Below the pieces are notes generated by a model. It was not told the DNA's origin. It worked only from the letters and a program-made list of their open reading frames with translations, and did no database searches. Below, piece by piece: positions 15,154 to 61,204 of a DNA stretch of 64,000 nucleotides. How positions within the stretch are numbered: the first letter of the stretch is position 1; each line of letters starts with the position of its first letter. The translations under genes were made by a program, and so were the position numbers. This DNA is from Oerskovia turbata (lineage in GTDB: Bacteria; Actinomycetota; Actinomycetes; Actinomycetales; Cellulomonadaceae). The stretch is taken from positions 186,001-250,000 of the forward strand of contig NZ_JOFV01000005.1 in NCBI RefSeq assembly GCF_000718325.1, read 5' to 3'.

Positions 15154-15792
15154 ATGGAGAAGTTCACCACCCACACCGGTGTCGGTGTCCCGCTGCGCCG
15201 CAGCAACGTCGACACGGACCAGATCATCCCCGCCGTCTACCTCAAGCGCGTGACGCGCACGGGCTTCGAGGACGCGCTGTTCGCGGCGTGGCGCGGCGAC
15301 CCCGCGTTCGTCCTGAACCAGCCCGCGTACACGTCGGGCTCCGTGCTGGTCGCAGGCCCCGACTTCGGCACCGGCTCGTCGCGCGAGCACGCCGTGTGGG
15401 CCCTCAAGGACTACGGCTTCAAGGTCGTCCTGGCCTCGCGCTTCGCGGACATCTTCCGCGGCAACTCGGGCAAGCAGGGCCTCGTCGCGGGCATCGTCGC
15501 GCAGGAGGACATCGAGCTGCTGTGGAAGGTCCTCGAGACCAAGCCCGGCACCGAGGTCACGGTCGACCTGGTCGAGCGCACCGCCACGGCCGACGACGTC
15601 GTGGTCCGCTTCCAGATCGACGACTACACGCGCTGGCGCCTCATGGAGGGCCTCGACGACATCGGCCTGACCCTCCAGCACGAGGGCGACATCACGGCGT
15701 TCGAGCAGACGCGCGCGTCGTGGCGCCCCAGGACGCTGCCGGCGAAGCACCTGCCGACGGTCGAGATCGAGGCAGCGCGCCCGTCCGCGTGA
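15154..15792 (+). CDS. leuD: 3-isopropylmalate dehydratase small subunit
   Basis: A 212-residue partner of LeuC forming the swivelling domain of the dehydratase. It starts [24 protein letters not shown] and has the conserved [13 protein letters not shown] and [14 protein letters not shown] segments. The ATG follows a GAGGAAGCAG ribosome site. It is the second gene of the leuCD operon and is closed by a strong hairpin 20 nt after the stop. In many actinobacteria hup and murA come next; here a 13.6-kb accessory block intervenes. Confidence 0.98.
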
Positions 15793-15812
15793 CGCCCGTC
15801 TGAGCCCGGCCC

Positions 15813-15852
15813 GACGGCGCCGCTCCCCCGGGTAGGGGAGCGGCGCCGTCGG
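15813..15852 (+). terminator. leuCD terminator
   Basis: A perfect 17-bp stem (15813-15829 with 15836-15852) with a 6-nt loop lies 20 nt after the leuD stop. It separates the leu operon from the 22-bp repeat array that starts 27 nt later. Confidence 0.8.
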
Positions 15853-15879
15853 CGTGTGCGGGCCCGCGCGCCGGTGCGC

Positions 15880-16227
15880 GCCGAGGGTGACGGACGCGCC
15901 CGCCGAGGGTGACGGACGCGCCCGCCGAGGGTGACGGACGCGCCCGCCGAGGGTGACGCGGTGGCCCGCCGAGGGTGACGCGGACTGCTGCCGAAGGTGA
16001 CGTGCTGGTGCGTCGAGGGTGACGGACACGCGACCTGAGGGTGACGTGTACCCGTGCTGACGTGGATCGCCGGAGGGCCGGGCCGCCACTGCGGCCGTGC
16101 GCGGGTCACCGCCGACGGTCAGGACGGTCACCCTCAGCAGACGTCTCGGTCACCCTCGGCAGGCGCCTACGTCACCCTCGACCAGGGGTTTGGTCACCCT
16201 CGGCGGGCCACCGCGTCACCCTCGGCG
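15880..16227. repeat. 22-bp-period repeat array A (8 forward, 6 inverted units)
   Basis: The core GAGGGTGAC, usually within GCCGAGGGTGACG, occurs at 15883, 15905, 15927, 15949, 15971, 15993 (one mismatch), 16015 and 16037, exactly 22 bp apart. After a 59-bp centre the reverse complement GTCACCCTC occurs at 16105 (diverged), 16127, 16149, 16171, 16193 and 16215, again exactly 22 bp apart. The 10-bp spacers vary, except that the first three units are near-identical 22-mers. The array fills almost all of the 447-bp gap between leuD and the convergent oxidoreductase gene. Because 22 is not a multiple of 3, it is not coding. Confidence 0.93.
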
Positions 16228-16239
16228 TGCGGCTCTCGT

Positions 16240-17079
16240 TCAGGGGCGCGGCGGGCCCTGGCGGATCCTTGCGAGCTGCGACGCTGCCGTCACCTTCGTC
16301 GGGTCCCAGCCGGCCTCGAGCCACCAGGTCGCGCCCGCCGCCTCGAGCGCCCGCGCGTCCTCGGCGGCAGCGTCGAGGTCGGTCGCGAAGTCGCGCTGCA
16401 CGACGAGCTCGAACGGCCCGGCGCCCGGGTCGCGATGCTCGGCGACCCAGCTCGCGACCTCGCGCACGTCGTCGGGCGTGAGCGGGTCCATGCCGCGGTC
16501 GCCGCGGAGCTGGACGGTCACCCCGTCCCAGCGCACCGCGCGGCTCATCGACCTCTCGCTCGGGAAGACCCCCACGGGCCACACCGGGATGCGCCCGTTG
16601 ACGGGCTGCGGTGAGATCGTCATCTCGCCGGTCGAGATGTGCTTCCCGTCGAACGAGAACGCCTCACCGGACCAGGAACGCTCGAGAAAGGCCAGGACGT
16701 CGTCGAGCAGCTCGGCCCGCTCACGCAGCGACGTGAGCTGACCGGGAACGGCGCTGAAGCCGGCGTCGTCGAGCACCCCGACCCCCGCCGGCAGGACCAG
16801 CCGACCGCCCGACAGGTGGTCGACCGTCAGCGCCTGACGCGCGAGCTCCCACGGCCGCCTGCGTGGCAGCGCGAACACGAGCGCGCCGAGCGTCACGCGC
16901 TCGGTCTGGACGGCCGCCGCGGCGAGGATGCCCCACGGGTCGTACCCCTCCATGCCGGGCAGGCTGATGCCGTCCCACGTGAAGTAGCCGTCCCAGCCGT
17001 GCTCTTCGGCCTCGCGGGCCATCGTGACCAGCTCCGACGCGGAACCGAAGCTCCCGACGAACCCGAACTGCAAGCCCAT
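16240..17079 (-). CDS. LLM-class F420-dependent oxidoreductase
   Basis: A 279-residue luciferase-like TIM barrel. Actinobacterial members of this size usually bind coenzyme F420 or FMN and transfer hydride to or from small molecules. It starts MGLQFGFVGSFGSASELV, with the typical AREAEEHGWDGYFTWDG and VTLGALVFALPRRRP segments. The ATG at 17079 has a perfect AGGAGGA ribosome site. Its stop lies 13 nt from repeat array A. It is probably a single-gene unit. The substrate is unknown, and cofactor choice is inferred from the family. Confidence 0.85.
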   Translation of the reverse strand: MGLQFGFVGSFGSASELVTMAREAEEHGWDGYFTWDGISLPGMEGYDPWGILAAAAVQTERVTLGALVFALPRRRPWELARQALTVDHLSGGRLVLPAGVGVLDDAGFSAVPGQLTSLRERAELLDDVLAFLERSWSGEAFSFDGKHISTGEMTISPQPVNGRIPVWPVGVFPSERSMSRAVRWDGVTVQLRGDRGMDPLTPDDVREVASWVAEHRDPGAGPFELVVQRDFATDLDAAAEDARALEAAGATWWLEAGWDPTKVTAASQLARIRQGPPRP

Positions 17080-17153
17080 GACGTCCTCCTGCGAACCCTC
17101 GGCGGTCCTTCCACGGTAGGGGCGGCCACCCACACGCGCCCCGAGAACGAGGA

Positions 17154-17185
17154 CGGGCGGGCTCCCGGAACCAGGAGCCCGCCCG
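17154..17185 (-). terminator. Terminator of the DUF808 gene
   Basis: A perfect 12-bp stem (17154-17165 with 17174-17185) with an 8-nt loop lies 22 nt after the DUF808 stop on the minus strand. Confidence 0.72.
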
Positions 17186-17207
17186 CAGCGCCCTGCGAGG
17201 GCGAGGA

Positions 17208-18140
17208 TCAGTGCTTGTTCTTGCGCGGGATGAAGTGCACGACCGTCACGACGACCGCGCCCGCCACGACGCCGACGATCGCGGAGCCCAGGGTGTCGAC
17301 GAGCCACACCAGGAACCCGCCGACGGCCGGGACGCCGTGCACGGCGTCCTCGAGGACGTGCAGGAGGTCGTAGGGCGCGTGCCAGCCCAGGTCATAGGTG
17401 CCCTGCAGCAGGATGTGGCCGCCGACCCACAGCATGGCGACCGTGCCCACGATAGAGATGACCGCCATGACGCGCGGCATCGCCTTGACCAGGCCGTGGC
17501 CGAACGACTTGACCCAGCCGGTCTCGCGCCCTGCGAGGTGCAGGCCGATGTCGTCCATCTTCACGATGAGCCCGACGATCCCGTAGACGACCGCCGTGAT
17601 GAGGAGCGCGACGACGACCAGGATGATCGCGCGGGCCCAGAAGCCCTCCTCCGCGACCTCGTTGAGCGCGATGACCATGATCTCGGCGCTGAGGATGAAG
17701 TCGGTGCGCACCGCGCTCGACACGACGTGGTCCTCGTCGACGGCCTTCTTCGCGGCGGCCTCGTCGACCGCCTCGGCGTGCTTGCCCGAGACCATCTCCC
17801 AGAGCTTCTCGGCGCCCTCGAACGCGAGGTAGGCGCCGCCGACCATGAGCAGCGGCGTGAGCAGCCACGGCAGGAACTGGCTCAGCAGCAGGGCGGCGGG
17901 GAGGATGAACAGGAGCTTGTTGCGCAGCGACCCCATCGCGATGCGCTTGATCACGGGCAGCTCGCGCTTCGCGGCCAGCCCGGCGACGTACTGCGGTGTG
18001 ACCGCGGTGTCGTCGATCACGATACCGGTCGCCTTGACGCTCGCCCGCCCCGCCGCGGCGCCGATGTCGTCGACGGACGCGGCCGCCAGCTTGGCGAACG
18101 CTGCGATGTCGTCCAGGAGGGCTACGAGTCCAACGGCCAT
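17208..18140 (-). CDS. DUF808 (YedI-family) inner-membrane protein
   Basis: A 310-residue membrane protein of the DUF808/YedI family. It begins with a soluble ALLDDIAAFAKLAAASVDD segment, then has several hydrophobic segments (about residues 75-105, 165-200, 220-250 and 280-305). A short charged loop, KLWEMVSGKHAEAVDEAA, lies between the first two. The family is widespread but its function is unknown. A ribosome site (gggagacc) lies before the ATG. Upstream is repeat array B, shared with the divergent lpd gene. Confidence 0.85.
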   Translation of the reverse strand: MAVGLVALLDDIAAFAKLAAASVDDIGAAAGRASVKATGIVIDDTAVTPQYVAGLAAKRELPVIKRIAMGSLRNKLLFILPAALLLSQFLPWLLTPLLMVGGAYLAFEGAEKLWEMVSGKHAEAVDEAAAKKAVDEDHVVSSAVRTDFILSAEIMVIALNEVAEEGFWARAIILVVVALLITAVVYGIVGLIVKMDDIGLHLAGRETGWVKSFGHGLVKAMPRVMAVISIVGTVAMLWVGGHILLQGTYDLGWHAPYDLLHVLEDAVHGVPAVGGFLVWLVDTLGSAIVGVVAGAVVVTVVHFIPRKNKH

Positions 18141-18251
18141 GAGGTCTCCACGAGGCCCGTGTCGCCGCCCACGAGCCCGGAGGTCGGGAATCGACGCGGC
18201 TGTAGCGCATCGTAACGACTCGGGCGCCCCGCCGTCGCGGCCCGTCCGCGC

Positions 18252-18514
18252 GCCGAGGGCGACGCACTTGGCCGCCGGCGGTGACGCCCATGCCCGCCGA
18301 GGGTGACCGCGGTACCCGCCGACGGTGACGCGCCAGCTGCCCGACGGCGTCGCTCCCGTCGTCGGGGCGTGTCACCGTCGGCATCGGTTCCGTCACCACC
18401 AGGGGCTGATGCGGTCACCGTCGGCGTCCGGGTCAGTCACCGTCGGCAGCCATGCACGTCACCCTCGGCGGTCACAGCCGTCACCGTCGGCGGTTCGGGG
18501 CGTCACCCTCGGCG
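18252..18514. repeat. 22-bp-period repeat array B (5 forward, 7 inverted units)
   Basis: Forward cores at 18255 (GAGGGCGAC), 18277 (GGCGGTGAC), 18299 (GAGGGTGAC), 18321 (GACGGTGAC) and 18343 (GACGGCGTC) are 22 bp apart. Inverted cores GTCACC(G/C)TC are at 18371, 18392 (diverged), 18414, 18436, 18458, 18480 and 18502, at 22 bp with one 21-bp step. Compared with array A, the C-variant GACGGTGAC dominates. It lies in the 440-bp region between the divergent DUF808 and lpd genes. The remaining part, 18141-18251, shows nothing recognisable. Confidence 0.92.
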
Positions 18515-18580
18515 CTCCCCGGGCGACGTGTGACGCGATCGGTCGCACCGCCGTCGGGCAGACGTCCTAGGCTGGTCCCC

Positions 18581-19984
<1,404 letters not shown>

Positions 19985-46674: not shown

Positions 46675-48414
46675 GTGACGGACGGCACGGAGCACATCGA
46701 GCCCGCGGTGGTGCGGGAGTGGGTGGCGGAGACGGTCCGGACGCTCGGCCAGGCCAGGGCACGCATCGACCGCGCGAACGTGTTCCCCGTGGCCGACGCC
46801 GACACGGGCACCAACCTGTTCCTGACCGTCACGGAGGGAGCTCGGACCGTGGGCGAGGTGCCCGACGGCGCGCCCGTCGACGCCGTGCTGCTCGCCTTCG
46901 CGCGGGGCGCCCTGATCGGCGCGCGCGGCAACTCGGGCGTGATCCTCAGCGAGTTCCTGCGCGGGTTCGCCGGTGCGACCACCGTGGCCGACGAGCCCGT
47001 CGGGTCCCTGCGGGTCGCGACGCGCCTCGAGGCGGCGGCCCGCTCGTCCTCCGCGGCCGTCGCGGTCCCGGTCGCCGGGACGATCCTCACCGCGGCCGAC
47101 GGAGCCGCCGTCGCCGCTCGCGTCGCGGCGGACGCCGGGGCAGGCCTGAGCGGCGTCGTGCTCGCAGCGCGCACGGGAGCGCACGACGCCATGCTGCGCA
47201 GCCCGCGAGAGCTCGACGTCCTGTCCCGCGCGGGCGTGCTCGACGCCGGGGCGTTCGGGCTCGTGCTCGTCCTCGACGCGCTGTGCCGGGCGCTGGGCGC
47301 CGTCGCCGACGACGTCGCAGACCTCGCCGACACCGCTGACCTGACCTGCACGACTGACACGACCGAACTGGCCGTGCTGGCCGACCTCGGCGCTCCCGAC
47401 GCTGCGGGGGAGGGCCCCGGCACGGACTGCCCCCTGTCGGTGGCCGACGGCACCATGTCCCCCATGACGTCCCCCCTGGCGAGCGGGCTTGCCGGTGCCG
47501 CCCCTGCCGAGCCCGTGCCCGTCGGGATCGACGGCGAGTTCGAGGTCATGCTCGTGGTCGACGGCACGGACGGCACAGGTGCCCCGGCTCCGTCGCCGCC
47601 CCTCGCCGACGCGCTGCGCGCGGCGCTCGCGCAGGTCGGCGACTCGGTCGTGGTCGTGGGGGAGGGCGTGTGGCAGGCCCACGTGCACACCGACGACCCC
47701 GCGCGCGCCGTGCAGGCCGCCCGGACCGCGGCCGGCGACGCCCGGCTGCGCCAGGTGTGCGTCCGTCACCTCGCGACGCAGGTCGCCGCACGCGGACTCG
47801 CCGACGACCTGCACGGCCATGCGGTCCCGACGGCGGAGGTCCCCGAGCACGGCGTCGTCGCGATCACCTCGGCCCCCGGCCTCGTGCCGGACCTGGCCCG
47901 CAGCGGAGCCGTCGTCCTCCTCACGACCGACCAGGCGCCGACCCCGGGAGAGGTGCTGCGCGTGGCCGTGGACACCGGTGCGCGCCGCGTCGCCGTCCTG
48001 CCCGGGAGCGAGGTCGCGGCCGACGTGGCCCGTGAGGCCGGTGGGCTCGTCGGCCCCGGCGCAGGCGACCTGCGAGGCCTCGAGGTGCTCGACGCCCCCA
48101 CCGACCTGCACGTCGTCGCCGCGCTCGCGGCAGCGGCCCTGGGATCCGTGGACGACGTCGTCGCCCTCATGCGCGCGACCCTCGACGACGTCCGGGCCGT
48201 CCAGGTCCCCGCGGACGGGGCGTTCGTGCGACCCGCGCTCGAAGGCCTCCTCCGGGCCGACGACGAGGTGCTGACCGTCCTGCCGGGGCGACGGGTCGAC
48301 CCGGTCGTGATCGACGTCGTCGCGGGCATCGCCCGCCAGCGCGTCCCGGGCATCGAGGTTGTCGTCCTCGACTCGGGGCGCGACCACGCCGACCTGGAGC
48401 TGGGAGCAGAATGA
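46675..48414 (+). CDS. DAK2-domain protein (FakA-like fatty-acid kinase)
   Basis: A 579-residue protein with an N-terminal DhaL/DAK2 ATP-binding domain (NVFPVADADTGTN near residue 35 holds the Mg-binding Asps; ARGNSGVILSEFLRGF follows) and a C-terminal FakA/DegV-associated region (about 280-579). In Firmicutes FakA phosphorylates fatty acids carried by FakB. A role here is by homology, and no fakB is nearby. GTG 46675 is chosen for its AAGGAG site (46659-46664). It overlaps recG by ATGA, a linkage conserved in many Gram-positives. Confidence 0.88.
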   Translation: MTDGTEHIEPAVVREWVAETVRTLGQARARIDRANVFPVADADTGTNLFLTVTEGARTVGEVPDGAPVDAVLLAFARGALIGARGNSGVILSEFLRGFAGATTVADEPVGSLRVATRLEAAARSSSAAVAVPVAGTILTAADGAAVAARVAADAGAGLSGVVLAARTGAHDAMLRSPRELDVLSRAGVLDAGAFGLVLVLDALCRALGAVADDVADLADTADLTCTTDTTELAVLADLGAPDAAGEGPGTDCPLSVADGTMSPMTSPLASGLAGAAPAEPVPVGIDGEFEVMLVVDGTDGTGAPAPSPPLADALRAALAQVGDSVVVVGEGVWQAHVHTDDPARAVQAARTAAGDARLRQVCVRHLATQVAARGLADDLHGHAVPTAEVPEHGVVAITSAPGLVPDLARSGAVVLLTTDQAPTPGEVLRVAVDTGARRVAVLPGSEVAADVAREAGGLVGPGAGDLRGLEVLDAPTDLHVVAALAAAALGSVDDVVALMRATLDDVRAVQVPADGAFVRPALEGLLRADDEVLTVLPGRRVDPVVIDVVAGIARQRVPGIEVVVLDSGRDHADLELGAE

Positions 48415-50786
48415 GCAGCGACCCTCGTGCCGCGGGACCCGAGGCAGACGCGGACCACGTGACCGGCACGCGACGCCTCGCGGGCGACCTGGTGACCGGA
48501 CCCGTCGACCGCTTCGCCGAGCCCCTGACCACGGTCCTCGGCCCGCGCTCGGCGGGCGCGCTCGCCAAGCTGGGCCTCGAGACCACGGGCGACCTGCTGG
48601 GCCACTACCCGCGCCGCTACGGCGACCCGGGCCGGCTCACCGACCTCGGTGGCCTGGTGCTGGGCGAGCACGTCACGATCATGGCGCGTGTCGTCCAGGC
48701 GACCGTGCGGGCCATGCGCTCGCGGGGCGGGGCCATGATGCAGGCCGAGGTGACCGACGGCGTGCACCGCCTCTCCCTGACGTTCTTCGCCAAGGGCACC
48801 GGTGCGCTGCGCACCCACGAGAGCCGCCTCCAGCCCGGTCGCACGGGCCTGTTCACCGGTGTCGTGAGCGAGTACCGCGGCACGCGCCAGCTCACGCACC
48901 CCGACTACCTGATCATCGGGGTCGACGCCGACGACGAGGAGGCCGCCCTCATCGAGGCACGCCGTCCCATCCCGCTCTACCCGGCGAGCGCCGCGATCCC
49001 GAGCTGGCGCATCCAGAAGGCCGTCCGTCAGGTCCTCGACCCGCTGACCGAGGACGAGGTGCCGGACCCGCTGCCGCCCGCCGTCCGCGAGGCCCGCGGC
49101 TTCGGGTCGCGGCACGACGCGCTCAAGGACGTCCACGAACCGTTCGACACGCGCCAGTGGCAGCACGGCCGGGACCGCCTGCGCTACGAGGAGGCGTTCG
49201 TGCTCCAGGCCGCGCTCGCCCAGCGGCGCGCGCGGGCCGAGGCCGAGGAGGCGACGGCACGGCCCCTGCGCGCACCCGGCGGACCCAGCGCGCTCGCGGA
49301 CTTCGACGCATCGCTGCCGTTCACGCTCACGGCCGGGCAGCGCGAGATCGGTGAGGAGATCTCCGGCGAGCTCGCGCGCTCGCGGCCCATGCAGCGCCTG
49401 CTCCAGGGCGAGGTCGGCTCAGGGAAGACCGTCGTCGCGCTGCGCGCGATGCTCCAGGTGGTCGACGCCGGAGGGCAGGCCGCGCTCCTGGCCCCCACCG
49501 AGGTGCTCGCCGCGCAGCACGCCCGCACCCTGCGGGCGCTGCTGGGACCGCTCGCGGAGGAGGGCATGCTGGGCGGGGCCGACCACGGGACGCGCGTCGC
49601 GCTCCTCACCGGGTCCATGGGGGCCGCGGCCAAGAAGGGCGCGCTGCTCGACGCGGCGAGCGGCCGGGCCGGGATCGTCGTCGGGACCCACGCGCTGCTG
49701 AGCGAGAACGTGCAGTTCGCGGACCTCGGCCTGGTCGTGGTCGACGAGCAGCACCGGTTCGGCGTCGAGCAGCGCGACGCGCTGCGCGCCAAGGCCCGCA
49801 CCAGCCCGCACCTGCTCGTCATGACGGCGACGCCCATCCCGCGCACGGTCGCCATGACGGTGTTCGGCGACCTCGAGACGTCGTCGCTCACCGAGATCCC
49901 GGCAGGGCGTGCAGGCATCACGACGCACGTCGTGCCCGCGGACAACGAGGCCTGGATGAACCGGACGTGGCAGCGCGTGCGCGAGGAGGTCGATGCCGGG
50001 CACCGCGCCTACGTGGTGTGCGCGCGGATCCACCCCGACGAACCTGCGGCGGGCCCGGGCGCCCCCGACGGGGCCGCCGCCCCCGCGAAGAAGAAGACCC
50101 GGACCGACGACTTCGACGAGGTGCCCGACTTTCTCGATCTCGACGGACAGGGCACCGGGTCGGACCGGCCACCGCTTCGCGCCGTGCTCGAGGTCGCCGA
50201 GGAGCTCTCGCACGTGCCCGCGCTGCGAGGGCTCGCCGTCGGCGTCCTGCACGGGCAGATGCCCCCCGCGGACAAGGAGAAGGTCATGGCCGACTTCGCG
50301 TCCGGGACCGTCCAGGTCCTCGTCTCGACCACCGTGGTCGAGGTCGGCGTGGACGTCCCCGAGGCCACCGTCATGGTCGTGTTCGACGCCGACCGGTTCG
50401 GCCTCTCGCAGCTCCACCAGCTCCGCGGGCGCGTGGGCCGCGGGTCCGCGCCCGGGCTGTGCCTGCTCGTCTCGACCGTCGAGCCCGGGACGCCCGCGGC
50501 CGTGCGCGTCGAGACCATGGCCGAGACCACCGACGGGTTCCGGCTCGCGACCGTCGACCTCGAGCTGCGCAGCGAGGGCGACGTGCTGGGCGCAGCCCAG
50601 TCCGGCAAGGCCAGCTCCCTGAAGCTGCTGCGGGTCGTCAAGGACGTCGCGGTCATCGAGCAGGCGCGGGCCGACGCGGCCGACGTCATCGCGGCCGACC
50701 CGGACCTGGCGGAGCACCCCGAGCTGCGCGCCGCGATCGCGAGCTGGCTCGACCCCGAGCGCGAGGAGTTCCTGGAACGGGCGTGA
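48411..50786 (+). CDS. recG: ATP-dependent DNA helicase RecG
   Basis: A 791-residue branch-migration helicase acting on Holliday junctions and stalled forks. It has an OB-fold wedge (about 75-180), Walker A GEVGSGKT (about 336), a DEQH-type Walker B (VVDEQHRFGVEQR), motif III MTATPIPRT and motif VI QLRGRVGRG. It is longer than usual because of an inserted Pro/Ala/Lys/Asp-rich stretch after VCARIHPDEP (about residues 545-590), seen in some actinobacterial RecG. It overlaps the kinase gene upstream by 4 nt. Array C follows its stop. Confidence 0.96.
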   Translation: MSSDPRAAGPEADADHVTGTRRLAGDLVTGPVDRFAEPLTTVLGPRSAGALAKLGLETTGDLLGHYPRRYGDPGRLTDLGGLVLGEHVTIMARVVQATVRAMRSRGGAMMQAEVTDGVHRLSLTFFAKGTGALRTHESRLQPGRTGLFTGVVSEYRGTRQLTHPDYLIIGVDADDEEAALIEARRPIPLYPASAAIPSWRIQKAVRQVLDPLTEDEVPDPLPPAVREARGFGSRHDALKDVHEPFDTRQWQHGRDRLRYEEAFVLQAALAQRRARAEAEEATARPLRAPGGPSALADFDASLPFTLTAGQREIGEEISGELARSRPMQRLLQGEVGSGKTVVALRAMLQVVDAGGQAALLAPTEVLAAQHARTLRALLGPLAEEGMLGGADHGTRVALLTGSMGAAAKKGALLDAASGRAGIVVGTHALLSENVQFADLGLVVVDEQHRFGVEQRDALRAKARTSPHLLVMTATPIPRTVAMTVFGDLETSSLTEIPAGRAGITTHVVPADNEAWMNRTWQRVREEVDAGHRAYVVCARIHPDEPAAGPGAPDGAAAPAKKKTRTDDFDEVPDFLDLDGQGTGSDRPPLRAVLEVAEELSHVPALRGLAVGVLHGQMPPADKEKVMADFASGTVQVLVSTTVVEVGVDVPEATVMVVFDADRFGLSQLHQLRGRVGRGSAPGLCLLVSTVEPGTPAAVRVETMAETTDGFRLATVDLELRSEGDVLGAAQSGKASSLKLLRVVKDVAVIEQARADAADVIAADPDLAEHPELRAAIASWLDPEREEFLERA

Positions 50787-50801
50787 CGGTCGCGCCGGTT
50801 C

Positions 50802-50880
50802 GCCGAGGGTGACGCCCGAGGGCGCCGAGGGTGACGCCCGGGGTCGCCGAGGGTGACGCACCGGAGCGCCGAGGGTGACG
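50802..50880. repeat. 22-bp-period repeat array C (4 forward units)
   Basis: GCCGAGGGTGACG occurs four times, with cores at 50805, 50827, 50849 and 50871, exactly 22 bp apart and without a single mismatch in the 13-bp core. Spacers differ. There are no inverted units. It fills the gap between recG (stop 50786) and the rsmD promoter (TAGGCT 50917-50922), which point the same way. Confidence 0.92.
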
Positions 50881-50928: not shown

Positions 50929-51513
50929 ATGACGAGGATCGTGGCCGGGACGGTCGGTGGACGCAGCCTGCAGGTGCCCCCCAAGGGGACGCGGCCCACG
51001 AGCGACCGGGTGCGCGAGGCGATCTTCTCGCGGCTCGAGCACTACGGGGTCCTCGACGGTGCGTACGTGCTCGACCTGTACGCGGGGTCCGGCGCTCTGG
51101 GGCTGGAAGCCGCCTCGCGGGGTGCGCAGCGGGTCGTGCTCGTGGACGCCGCGCGCGTCGCGGCCGAGGTCTGCCGGGCCAACGTCAGGACCCTCGGGCT
51201 GACGAACGTGCAGGTCGTCCAGGACAAGGCCGAGAAGTTCGTCCAGTCGGCGCCCGCGACCACGTGGGACGTCGTGTTCATCGACCCGCCCTACGACGTG
51301 TCCGAGGCAGTCGTCGCCGAGCTCCTGCGTCAGCTCGCGCAGACCTCAGCGCTCGTCGAGGACGCGGTCGTCGTGGTCGAACGGTCGACGCGCAGCCCCG
51401 AGCCGACGTGGCCGACCGCGTGGGAGCTGCTCGCCCGCAAGGACTACGGCGAGACCGCGGTGTTCTACGCGGGCCCCGTGGCGGCAGAGGAGCCGCAGGC
51501 CGACGCCTCCTGA
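50929..51513 (+). CDS. rsmD: 16S rRNA (guanine(966)-N(2))-methyltransferase
   Basis: A 194-residue rRNA methyltransferase. The N-terminal RIVAGTVGGRSLQVP is characteristic, SAM binding is at VLDLYAGSGALGLEA (about residues 46-60), and the catalytic FIDPPYD (DPPY) is near residue 115. The ATG is set by TAGGCT (50917-50922), which ends 6 nt upstream. Position between recG and coaD is conserved, though a GNAT gene now intervenes before coaD. Confidence 0.95.
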   Translation: MTRIVAGTVGGRSLQVPPKGTRPTSDRVREAIFSRLEHYGVLDGAYVLDLYAGSGALGLEAASRGAQRVVLVDAARVAAEVCRANVRTLGLTNVQVVQDKAEKFVQSAPATTWDVVFIDPPYDVSEAVVAELLRQLAQTSALVEDAVVVVERSTRSPEPTWPTAWELLARKDYGETAVFYAGPVAAEEPQADAS

Positions 51514-61169: not shown

Positions 61170-61204
61170 CGGGCCCGTGTCACCGGGCCCGTGTCACCGG
61201 GCCC
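61170..61204. repeat. 14-bp tandem repeat with GGGCCC palindromes
   Basis: CGGGCCCGTGTCAC occurs twice in tandem, followed by a third CGGGCCC. Any two GGGCCC copies can pair, so it may act as a weak terminator between the dipeptidase and DUF4259 genes. Confidence 0.6.

Follow-up and report, generated by a model that had tools for sequence, protein, structure and literature searches.

What is the array of short repeats that lies between leuD and a luciferase-like monooxygenase gene in Oerskovia turbata, and how is it to be explained? The window analysed here is a 64,000-nt stretch of one contig that contains this array (array A) together with two others (arrays B and C). Array A is real, and it is a member of a genome-wide repeat family. 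The features of the window that the argument needs are given below by coordinates and strand; gene coordinates come from a codon-usage gene finder and not from an annotation, and the names leuD and RsmD are those that we take the respective genes to bear.

15154..15792, + strand: gene for the 3-isopropylmalate dehydratase small subunit, presumably leuD (Pfam Aconitase_C and gene call); left neighbour of array A
15811..15852, no strand: terminator-like hairpin 3' of leuD and outside array A, a perfect 18-nt inverted repeat with a 6-nt loop
15879..16046, + strand: array A, forward half, 8 units with the 14-bp core CGCCGASGGTGACG at a period of 22 bp
16047..16103, no strand: array A, centre, 57 bp between 14-bp cores
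16104..16227, - strand: array A, inverted half, 6 units spaced 22 bp apart, with a degenerate innermost unit (16104-16117)
16240..17079, - strand: luciferase-like monooxygenase gene (Pfam Bac_luciferase), convergent with leuD; right neighbour of array A
17208..18140, - strand: DUF808 gene; left neighbour of array B
18251..18330, + strand: array B, forward half, 4 units at 22 bp
18370..18514, - strand: array B, inverted half, 6 units with one 43-bp step and all other steps 22 bp
18581..19984, + strand: lpd-type pyridine nucleotide-disulphide oxidoreductase gene, divergent from the DUF808 gene; right neighbour of array B
48411..50786, + strand: recG-type helicase gene; left neighbour of array C
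50801..50880, + strand: array C, 4 perfect forward units
50929..51513, + strand: Cons_hypoth95 methyltransferase gene, presumably RsmD-type; right neighbour of array C

The earlier note had described array A as 14 units at a 22-bp period in opposed halves of eight and six, and this is what we found: the forward cores start at 15879 to 16033 (n = 8), the inverted cores start at 16104 to 16214 (n = 6), and every step within a half is exactly 22 bp. The 59-bp centre that it gave was recovered between the facing 9-bp cores (16046-16104), and so was the terminator ahead of the array, the perfect hairpin with 18-nt arms behind leuD. By eye, this hairpin is kept at the array A site of the Oerskovia genomes G001, G002, G004, and G005 and altered in that of G006. 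Two details of the description had to be changed. The 9-bp core is exact in 12 of the 14 units rather than in all of them, as unit 6 of the forward half (GAAGGTGAC) has one mismatch and the innermost inverted unit at 16104-16117 (GGCGGTGAC) has two. The spacers, given as 10 bp, are in fact 13 bp between 9-bp cores or 8 bp between 14-bp cores, and a length of 10 bp fits only a 12-bp core. Pairs at 22 bp with at most two mismatches occur 21 times in the window, compared with a mean of 0.02 in 100 shuffles. The window also holds a perfect 14-bp tandem repeat (CGGGCCCGTGTCAC, 2.5 copies) in an intergenic region at 61170-61204.

Core, period, and convergence of the repeat family

The genome that holds the window (G000) is a draft of 4.03 Mb in 74 contigs. 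In this genome, the exact pair GAGGGTGAC-N13-GAGGGTGAC occurs 62 + 79 = 141 times and the reversed pattern does not occur. A tally of 280 units indicated that the family unit consists of an asymmetric 14-bp core, CGCCGASGGTGACG, and a variable, C-rich spacer of 8 bp, with the S position of the core being G in 72% and C in 23% of the units; GGTGAC is invariant in this tally by selection, the core matrix having been trained on units with an exact GGTGAC. The grammar of the arrays was then taken from 37 regions of G000, namely the window and 36 stretches chosen for carrying arrays (a choice complete for arrays of at least four units and otherwise made among the pairs listed), so that the counts describe array-bearing regions and not the whole genome. 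These regions contain 76 half-arrays, of which 63, with 298 units, are intergenic. Of the intergenic steps, 225 of 235 are 22 bp, and the others are 21 bp (four times), 20 bp (three times), or 43-44 bp (three times). In genus g11 and in genome G211 (genus g24), the same core forms arrays with converging halves and a period that is mostly 21 bp. Both 21 and 22 bp correspond to about two turns of the helix.

Adjacent opposed half-arrays converged in 36 of 36 cases (20 in G000, nine in other Oerskovia, and seven in g11/g24) and diverged in none, with sites common by descent counted separately. A laxer threshold produced four divergent neighbours, each with a lone core on at least one side. The length of the array centre is also non-random. 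Measured start to start, the facing cores were 17-19 bp apart in 9 of 20 cases in G000 and in 6 of 9 in other Oerskovia, and 50-51 bp apart in 6 of 7 cases in g11/g24; cores that face each other at 17-19 bp can form a hairpin with a loop of 3-5 nt. In G211, the centre was 36 bp in seven of eight arrays (L266-L271, L275), and by eye these centres appeared to be related, being of a TTYCGCGG...GCGGAA or a GCATTT type, as if copied as one unit. No sequence of this kind was seen by eye in the Oerskovia centres. Within the single unit, a register with a loop of 4-5 nt pairs partly, by about 4-5 bp at best, and the base at position -2 was associated with the base at S with p = 0.0007 in G000, 0.083 in other Oerskovia, and 0.97 in g11/g24, all of these being values for units that are not statistically independent within one array.

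Cores and spacers behave differently. Adjacent spacers of the same array are alike at 4.71 of 8 positions, compared with 3.22 of 8 between arrays, which shows that units duplicate locally; in 32 of 157 adjacent pairs, the spacers are identical. Among the 78 adjacent pairs with spacers alike at no more than four of eight positions, spacer identity was 34.8% and core identity was 90.5%, a comparison that is biased because the units were found by their cores. In unconditioned intergenic middle slots, defined by cores 22 bp to either side, 142 of 143 matched the core at 11 or more of 14 positions, and the 68 slots with dissimilar flanking spacers had a mean core match of 94.3%. Given this decoupling, plain slippage is insufficient: either something recognises the core or conversion renews it. 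Conservation of the core independently of the spacer is what would be expected of a recognised site. Between arrays, identical spacers occurred in 23 pairs, compared with a mean of 8.4 in 30 column shuffles (largest 19), and near-matches (at least 7 of 8) occurred in 169 pairs, which is within the shuffles (mean 118, largest 170). Exact blocks of up to 59 bp are common to different loci. Copying of some spacers from locus to locus is likely, if not firmly shown.

Distribution and turnover among genomes

Triple GGTGAC at 22 bp was found in 10 of 221 genomes of the family, including six of the seven Oerskovia genomes (161 matches in G000, 26 in G003, 21 in G004, nine in G005, seven in G002, three in G001, and none in G006); the four genomes from outside Oerskovia had one or two matches each. 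Counts of the 14-mer core were 197 in G000, 101 in G003, 50 in G005, 37 in G004, 25 in G002, six in G006, and four in G001. Most other genomes of the family have about 0-15 cores and a few have 16-17, and about 0-15 per genome may be coding background, since the reversed-pattern control was not codon-matched. The outliers were genus g11 (63, 40, and 16), G211 (27), and the genomes G191, G124, and G186 (19-24). An order-wide scan of 396 genomes, a sample in which the family genomes drawn did not include g11 and G211, gave more than one match to the 21/22-bp pair only in the three Oerskovia drawn and a single match in each of six other genomes. The expectation in the earlier note that core and spacing would recur in close relatives was thus borne out for the family, whose core is kept in Oerskovia with a period of 22 bp and in two other genera with a period that is mostly 21 bp, but not for array A at its own site.

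At that site, G000 has 14 units and G004 has four in one direction, two of which looked degenerate by eye. No unit was scored in G001, G002, G005, or G006, and the contig of G003 ends there; by eye, a degenerate unit can be made out at the stop codon in G005, and seemingly decayed units in G001. Site B has a single perfect inverted core in G002, G005, and G006 and none in G001. Site C, with four units in G000, has two in G002 and in G005; in the stretches retrieved from G001 and G006, the site was not located. Together, these data indicate that array copy number changes fast among related species. Some sites may be old, since arrays adjoin the same genes (ahcY, gene X, and the proV locus, where ahcY and proV are our names by recognition) in Oerskovia G000 and G004 and in G211, which belongs to another genus. 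The gene between ahcY and proV has arrays on both sides in G000 and G211 (L138:5614-6579, L266:2235-3131). Its protein in G211 gave a sub-threshold match to MTES_1575 (restriction-endonuclease-like; 19.6 bits, cut-off 38.2), and the protein in G000 had no Pfam match.

A polar motif of the KOPS or Chi type takes its orientation from the replichore. In the complete genome G005, with origin and terminus inferred from gene-strand bias, 25 of 50 cores were co-oriented with the leading strand (28 of 50 with the origin at 0.3 Mb), and we rejected a motif of this type. The near-origin half of G005 contained 26 of 36 sites with the origin at position 1 (p = 0.011, KS p = 0.005) and 25 of 36 with two other origin placements (p = 0.029). 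In G002, the same half contained 8 to 10 of 18 sites, and because the excess is absent there we do not claim an origin-proximal enrichment. Comparison of array positions with origin and terminus, as the earlier note had proposed, therefore revealed neither replichore polarity nor a reproducible origin bias, and these results, together with a range of 4 to 197 cores per species, lend no support to the nucleoid-organising role that it had suggested. As a separate observation, the 760 kb around the inferred terminus of G005 (2.17-2.93 Mb) contain zero perfect 14-bp cores, and a short variant-core array with four GGTGAC at 22 bp lies near that terminus (G005:C1:2558698-2558769).

Sources outside the chromosome were also considered. 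A phage source gained no support from one scan of viral contigs, in which the pattern GAGGGTGACN{12,13}GAGGGTGAC returned 26 stretches, all of them 21-bp pairs with no clear core array, and the full 14-bp core was present once in L296 and once in L302. Several viral contigs (L288, L289, L297, L299, L300, and L307) carry an array of GTGTCACCCTCCCC-type units, spaced by 21 bp or by other distances, that is reminiscent of origin iterons. These viral arrays are probably not of this family, as the CGCCGA half of the core is absent in the stretches shown. Distant searches with array A gave three weak plasmid records and one weak phage record. A plasmid source likewise gained no support from the two plasmid matches inspected, the one in a Protofrankia plasmid being an 18-bp repeat without GGTGAC and the one in Nocardia being a lone core.

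Arrays inside protein genes

The earlier note had held that array A is not a coding repeat, which is correct at that site but does not extend to the family, because arrays also occur inside genes. In G000, 13 half-arrays with 70 units lie within predicted genes, and their steps are either 22 bp (32) or 21 bp (25). Two adjacent NRPS genes contain seven array clusters, and the NRPS gene immediately upstream contains an eighth; the other array-bearing genes encode an ABC transporter (with the array between its two domains), a fused transport permease/ATPase, HemA, and a carboxyltransferase-domain protein. Arrays can also lie within a Pfam domain, as in an AMP-binding domain (488-865) with an array at residue 606 and in a TatD DNase domain of G211. 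This TatD DNase (L267:1893-3080) is 395 aa long, compared with 309 aa in G000, and holds a complete 21-bp array with a 36-bp centre. Where a unit in sense orientation would place a TGA in frame, the T was replaced by C in 5 of 5 units, compared with 4 of 51 in other frames and 11 of 307 in intergenic units; the 5 of 5 is partly forced because an open frame cannot hold a TGA.

Among the matches listed for an NRPS protein of G000, used as the query, the closest were from Oerskovia (87-94% identical in the alignment) and one from Cellulosimicrobium was 82% identical, which by this evidence assigns G000 to the genus Oerskovia. We aligned 13 proteins, the query and 12 chosen among the 120 listed (11 Oerskovia and one Cellulosimicrobium). 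In this alignment, the three array-bearing stretches are hypervariable loops that measured 17 to 79, 15 to 41, and 26 to 58 residues. Two proteins that are 96% identical (P0004 and P0013) have 48 and 26 residues in loop 3, a difference of 22 residues that equals three 22-bp units. A general length rule of 22 residues (3 x 22 bp) was nevertheless rejected, as this difference was seen in 3 of 55, 6 of 45, and 4 of 78 loop pairs and was not over-represented; differences of 21, 18, and 26 residues were at least as common in the three loops, respectively. HemA orthologs from 7 of 7 Oerskovia species have the same variable loop.

Known repeat systems and readings of the arrays

In the available parts of the literature on Oerskovia repeats, minisatellites, iterons, and actinobacterial REPs, no description of this family was found, and the 12-mers GCCGAGGGTGAC and GCCGACGGTGAC and their complements gave no match there that concerned bacterial repeats. 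Plasmid iterons and the end sites of Tn7 (bound by TnsB) and Mu have sites of about 22 bp whose in-phase repetition lets proteins assemble cooperatively and whose orientation is inverted between the two ends. The arrays share with them direct repeats in helical phase, at 22 bp in 225 of 235 steps and mostly at 21 bp in g11 and G211, but here the halves are close together (centres of up to about 100 bp), no transposon or replicon lies between them, and many arrays are dispersed over the chromosome. CRISPR repeats are about 23-50 bp long and alternate with unique spacers of similar length. We agree with the earlier note that the unit is far too short for CRISPR, with a 14-bp core and an 8-bp spacer, and the identity of neighbouring spacers in 32 of 157 pairs likewise led us to reject a CRISPR array.

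REP sequences are palindromic, and their mobility is ascribed to RAYT transposases (PMC3116915, PMC3733652). Like GTAG-tagged, RAYT-associated REPs and REPINs, the family consists of high-copy short extragenic repeats (63 of 76 half-arrays are intergenic) that form clusters, has hairpin-capable inverted pairs in many cases, and differs greatly in copy number between relatives. It departs from them in that its units are direct repeats at 21-22 bp and its facing pairs have one polarity in 36 of 36 cases. Moreover, a Y1_Tnp gene was found in 0 of 7 Oerskovia genomes by a search whose control was positive in 5 of 14 named genomes, and we rejected a RAYT-moved REP. The CGTC-tagged superfamily is described as having stems of 8-9 bp and a loop of 4-5 nt, with head-head dimers predominant, tail-tail dimers rare, and tandem copies negligible (PMC3733652). 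These repeats, which include RPE-4 and RPE-6 of Rickettsia, resemble the family in their facing ends (GACG...CGTC), their in-gene copies, and the lack of a known dedicated transposase (PMC3733652). The family described here has the CGTC as well, but pairing within its unit is uncertain and reaches only about 4-5 bp; its copies stand predominantly in tandem (63 half-arrays hold 298 units), and the tail-tail arrangement holds for 36 of 36 facing pairs. Rickettsia palindromic elements, which are 105-146 bp long with predicted stem-loops, are also both intergenic and in frame within conserved protein genes (PMC2229807); the in-gene copies here are instead tandem units of 22 or 21 bp with C for T at a would-be TGA. 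The nearest direct-repeat family in these sources is that of the TAACTGA repeats of Beggiatoaceae and others, which are 7 bp long, almost only direct, and in one genome mostly located just upstream of start codons (PMC4679880). Both families comprise many short direct-repeat sets that are mostly intergenic and sometimes within ORFs, and in both the cognate protein is putative (PMC4679880), but the arrays here have a 14-bp core, a two-turn spacing, convergent halves, and no clear placement relative to genes.

Position between convergent genes, as for array A, could suggest that the arrays terminate transcription or act as RNA elements of another kind at the ends of genes, an explanation that we consider very improbable. 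The RNA fold of array A is far stronger than that of shuffles (z -10), and one array in G005 (L339) brackets an ordinary hairpin. However, the mirrored spacers of the arms are complementary at 2.76 of 8 positions, no more than spacers of different loci are (3.16 of 8). The two arms are therefore not under selection as a single RNA hairpin, and the matching cores alone can explain the strong fold. In addition, leuD has its own hairpin, and the sole Rfam match for 15700-18700 at E <=0.1 was mir-598 at 26.4 bits, far under the cut-off of 69. Among intergenic regions of at least 40 bp, arrays occupy 10 of 48 convergent ones, compared with 27 of 125 tandem and 10 of 64 divergent ones, and single-direction arrays in tandem regions were co-oriented with the genes in ten cases and opposite in seven. 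The arrays thus have no clear preference for a gene arrangement or transcription direction, and we rejected an intrinsic terminator or 3'-end class, for which a fixed orientation downstream of genes would be expected. A GC-rich minisatellite, the cores of which are homogenised by gene conversion (concerted evolution) among hundreds of copies and without protein recognition, accords with the clear local duplication of units (4.71 of 8 for adjacent spacers, 3.22 of 8 between arrays) and with the exact blocks of up to 59 bp at different loci. It leaves unexplained why opposed halves converge in 36 of 36 cases, why certain centre lengths are preferred, why one core recurs at 21 bp in some genera and at 22 bp in another, and why the 14-bp core is decoupled from the 8-bp spacer. 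In our judgement, it is improbable.

The main rival is a selfish, non-autonomous element of the REP/REPIN or Rickettsia palindromic element type. Here a transposase would recognise the core or the facing-core hairpin and seed new sites, slippage would expand the arrays without any host role, and the core would be kept because the enzyme needs it. Many observations point this way: the patchy distribution and rapid change in copy number, sites that are empty in close relatives, arrays within protein genes in Oerskovia and within the TatD DNase gene in G211, facing cores that can form a hairpin with a loop of 3-5 nt, and the excess of identical spacers between loci. Even decay would be expected after insertion, yet within one array the spacers decay and the cores do not. 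The units repeat directly and in a constant helical phase, inspection of site A by eye showed neither an element boundary nor a target duplication, and a RAYT-type transposase (Y1_Tnp, PF01797, the one family searched) is encoded in none of the seven Oerskovia genomes. On balance, we regard a selfish element as rather unlikely.

The reading that we prefer, and which we consider an even call, is that the arrays are dispersed, phased binding sites for a putative protein, nucleated at an inverted pair. This DNA-binding protein, the gene of which would lie elsewhere, would recognise the asymmetric 14-bp core; it may serve either the cell, in chromosome architecture or segregation, or the spread of the element itself. 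Nucleation would take place at the inverted core pair, 17-19 bp apart start to start in many Oerskovia arrays and 50-51 bp apart in related genera. Direct repeats two helical turns away (21-22 bp) would then allow further copies of the protein to align on one face of the helix, and this alignment would extend outward from the inverted pair along both arms. Arrays would gain and lose whole units by slippage or unequal exchange, and binding would preserve the cores, leaving the spacers free to drift. A core-binding protein fits the fixed core, the 21/22-bp period, the convergence on a centre of preferred length, the independence of gene direction, and the conservation of the core irrespective of its spacer. 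The idea of two-turn phasing, already put forward in the earlier note, is strengthened by the finding that one conserved core has a period of 22 bp in Oerskovia and mostly of 21 bp in two other genera and by convergence in 36 of 36 cases; the cooperative binding that the note also suggested stays putative.

Other observations sit less comfortably with such binding arrays. The seven Oerskovia genomes have anywhere from 4 to 197 cores and sites are often empty in relatives, unlike what would be seen for an essential chromosomal system, and it is difficult to imagine a use to the host of copies that lie within hemA and NRPS genes. This patchiness, the empty sites, and the invasion of genes fit a selfish element better than binding arrays, and the homogeneity of the cores, which we attribute to selection for binding, could alternatively come from gene conversion between copies. 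The two could be reconciled by a hypothetical protein with both functions, site binding and site spreading. More tentatively, and with somewhat less than even confidence, we suggest that a putative protein may assemble on converging, two-turn-phased arrays chromosome-wide in Oerskovia and at least two related genera, forming paired filaments from an inverted site, and that arrays resident in genes may survive by means of a 21-bp period or a stop-avoiding base change.

Such a family would give actinobacteria a set of dispersed repeats with an unusual grammar, phased and convergent, in which the core is kept and the spacer is free. It provides a clear record of turnover across close relatives, and its in-gene arrays are a natural experiment in which a non-triplet repeat lives inside proteins. 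If the arrays are bound by a protein, they would lend themselves readily to assays of a new system that organises the chromosome or spreads its own sites.
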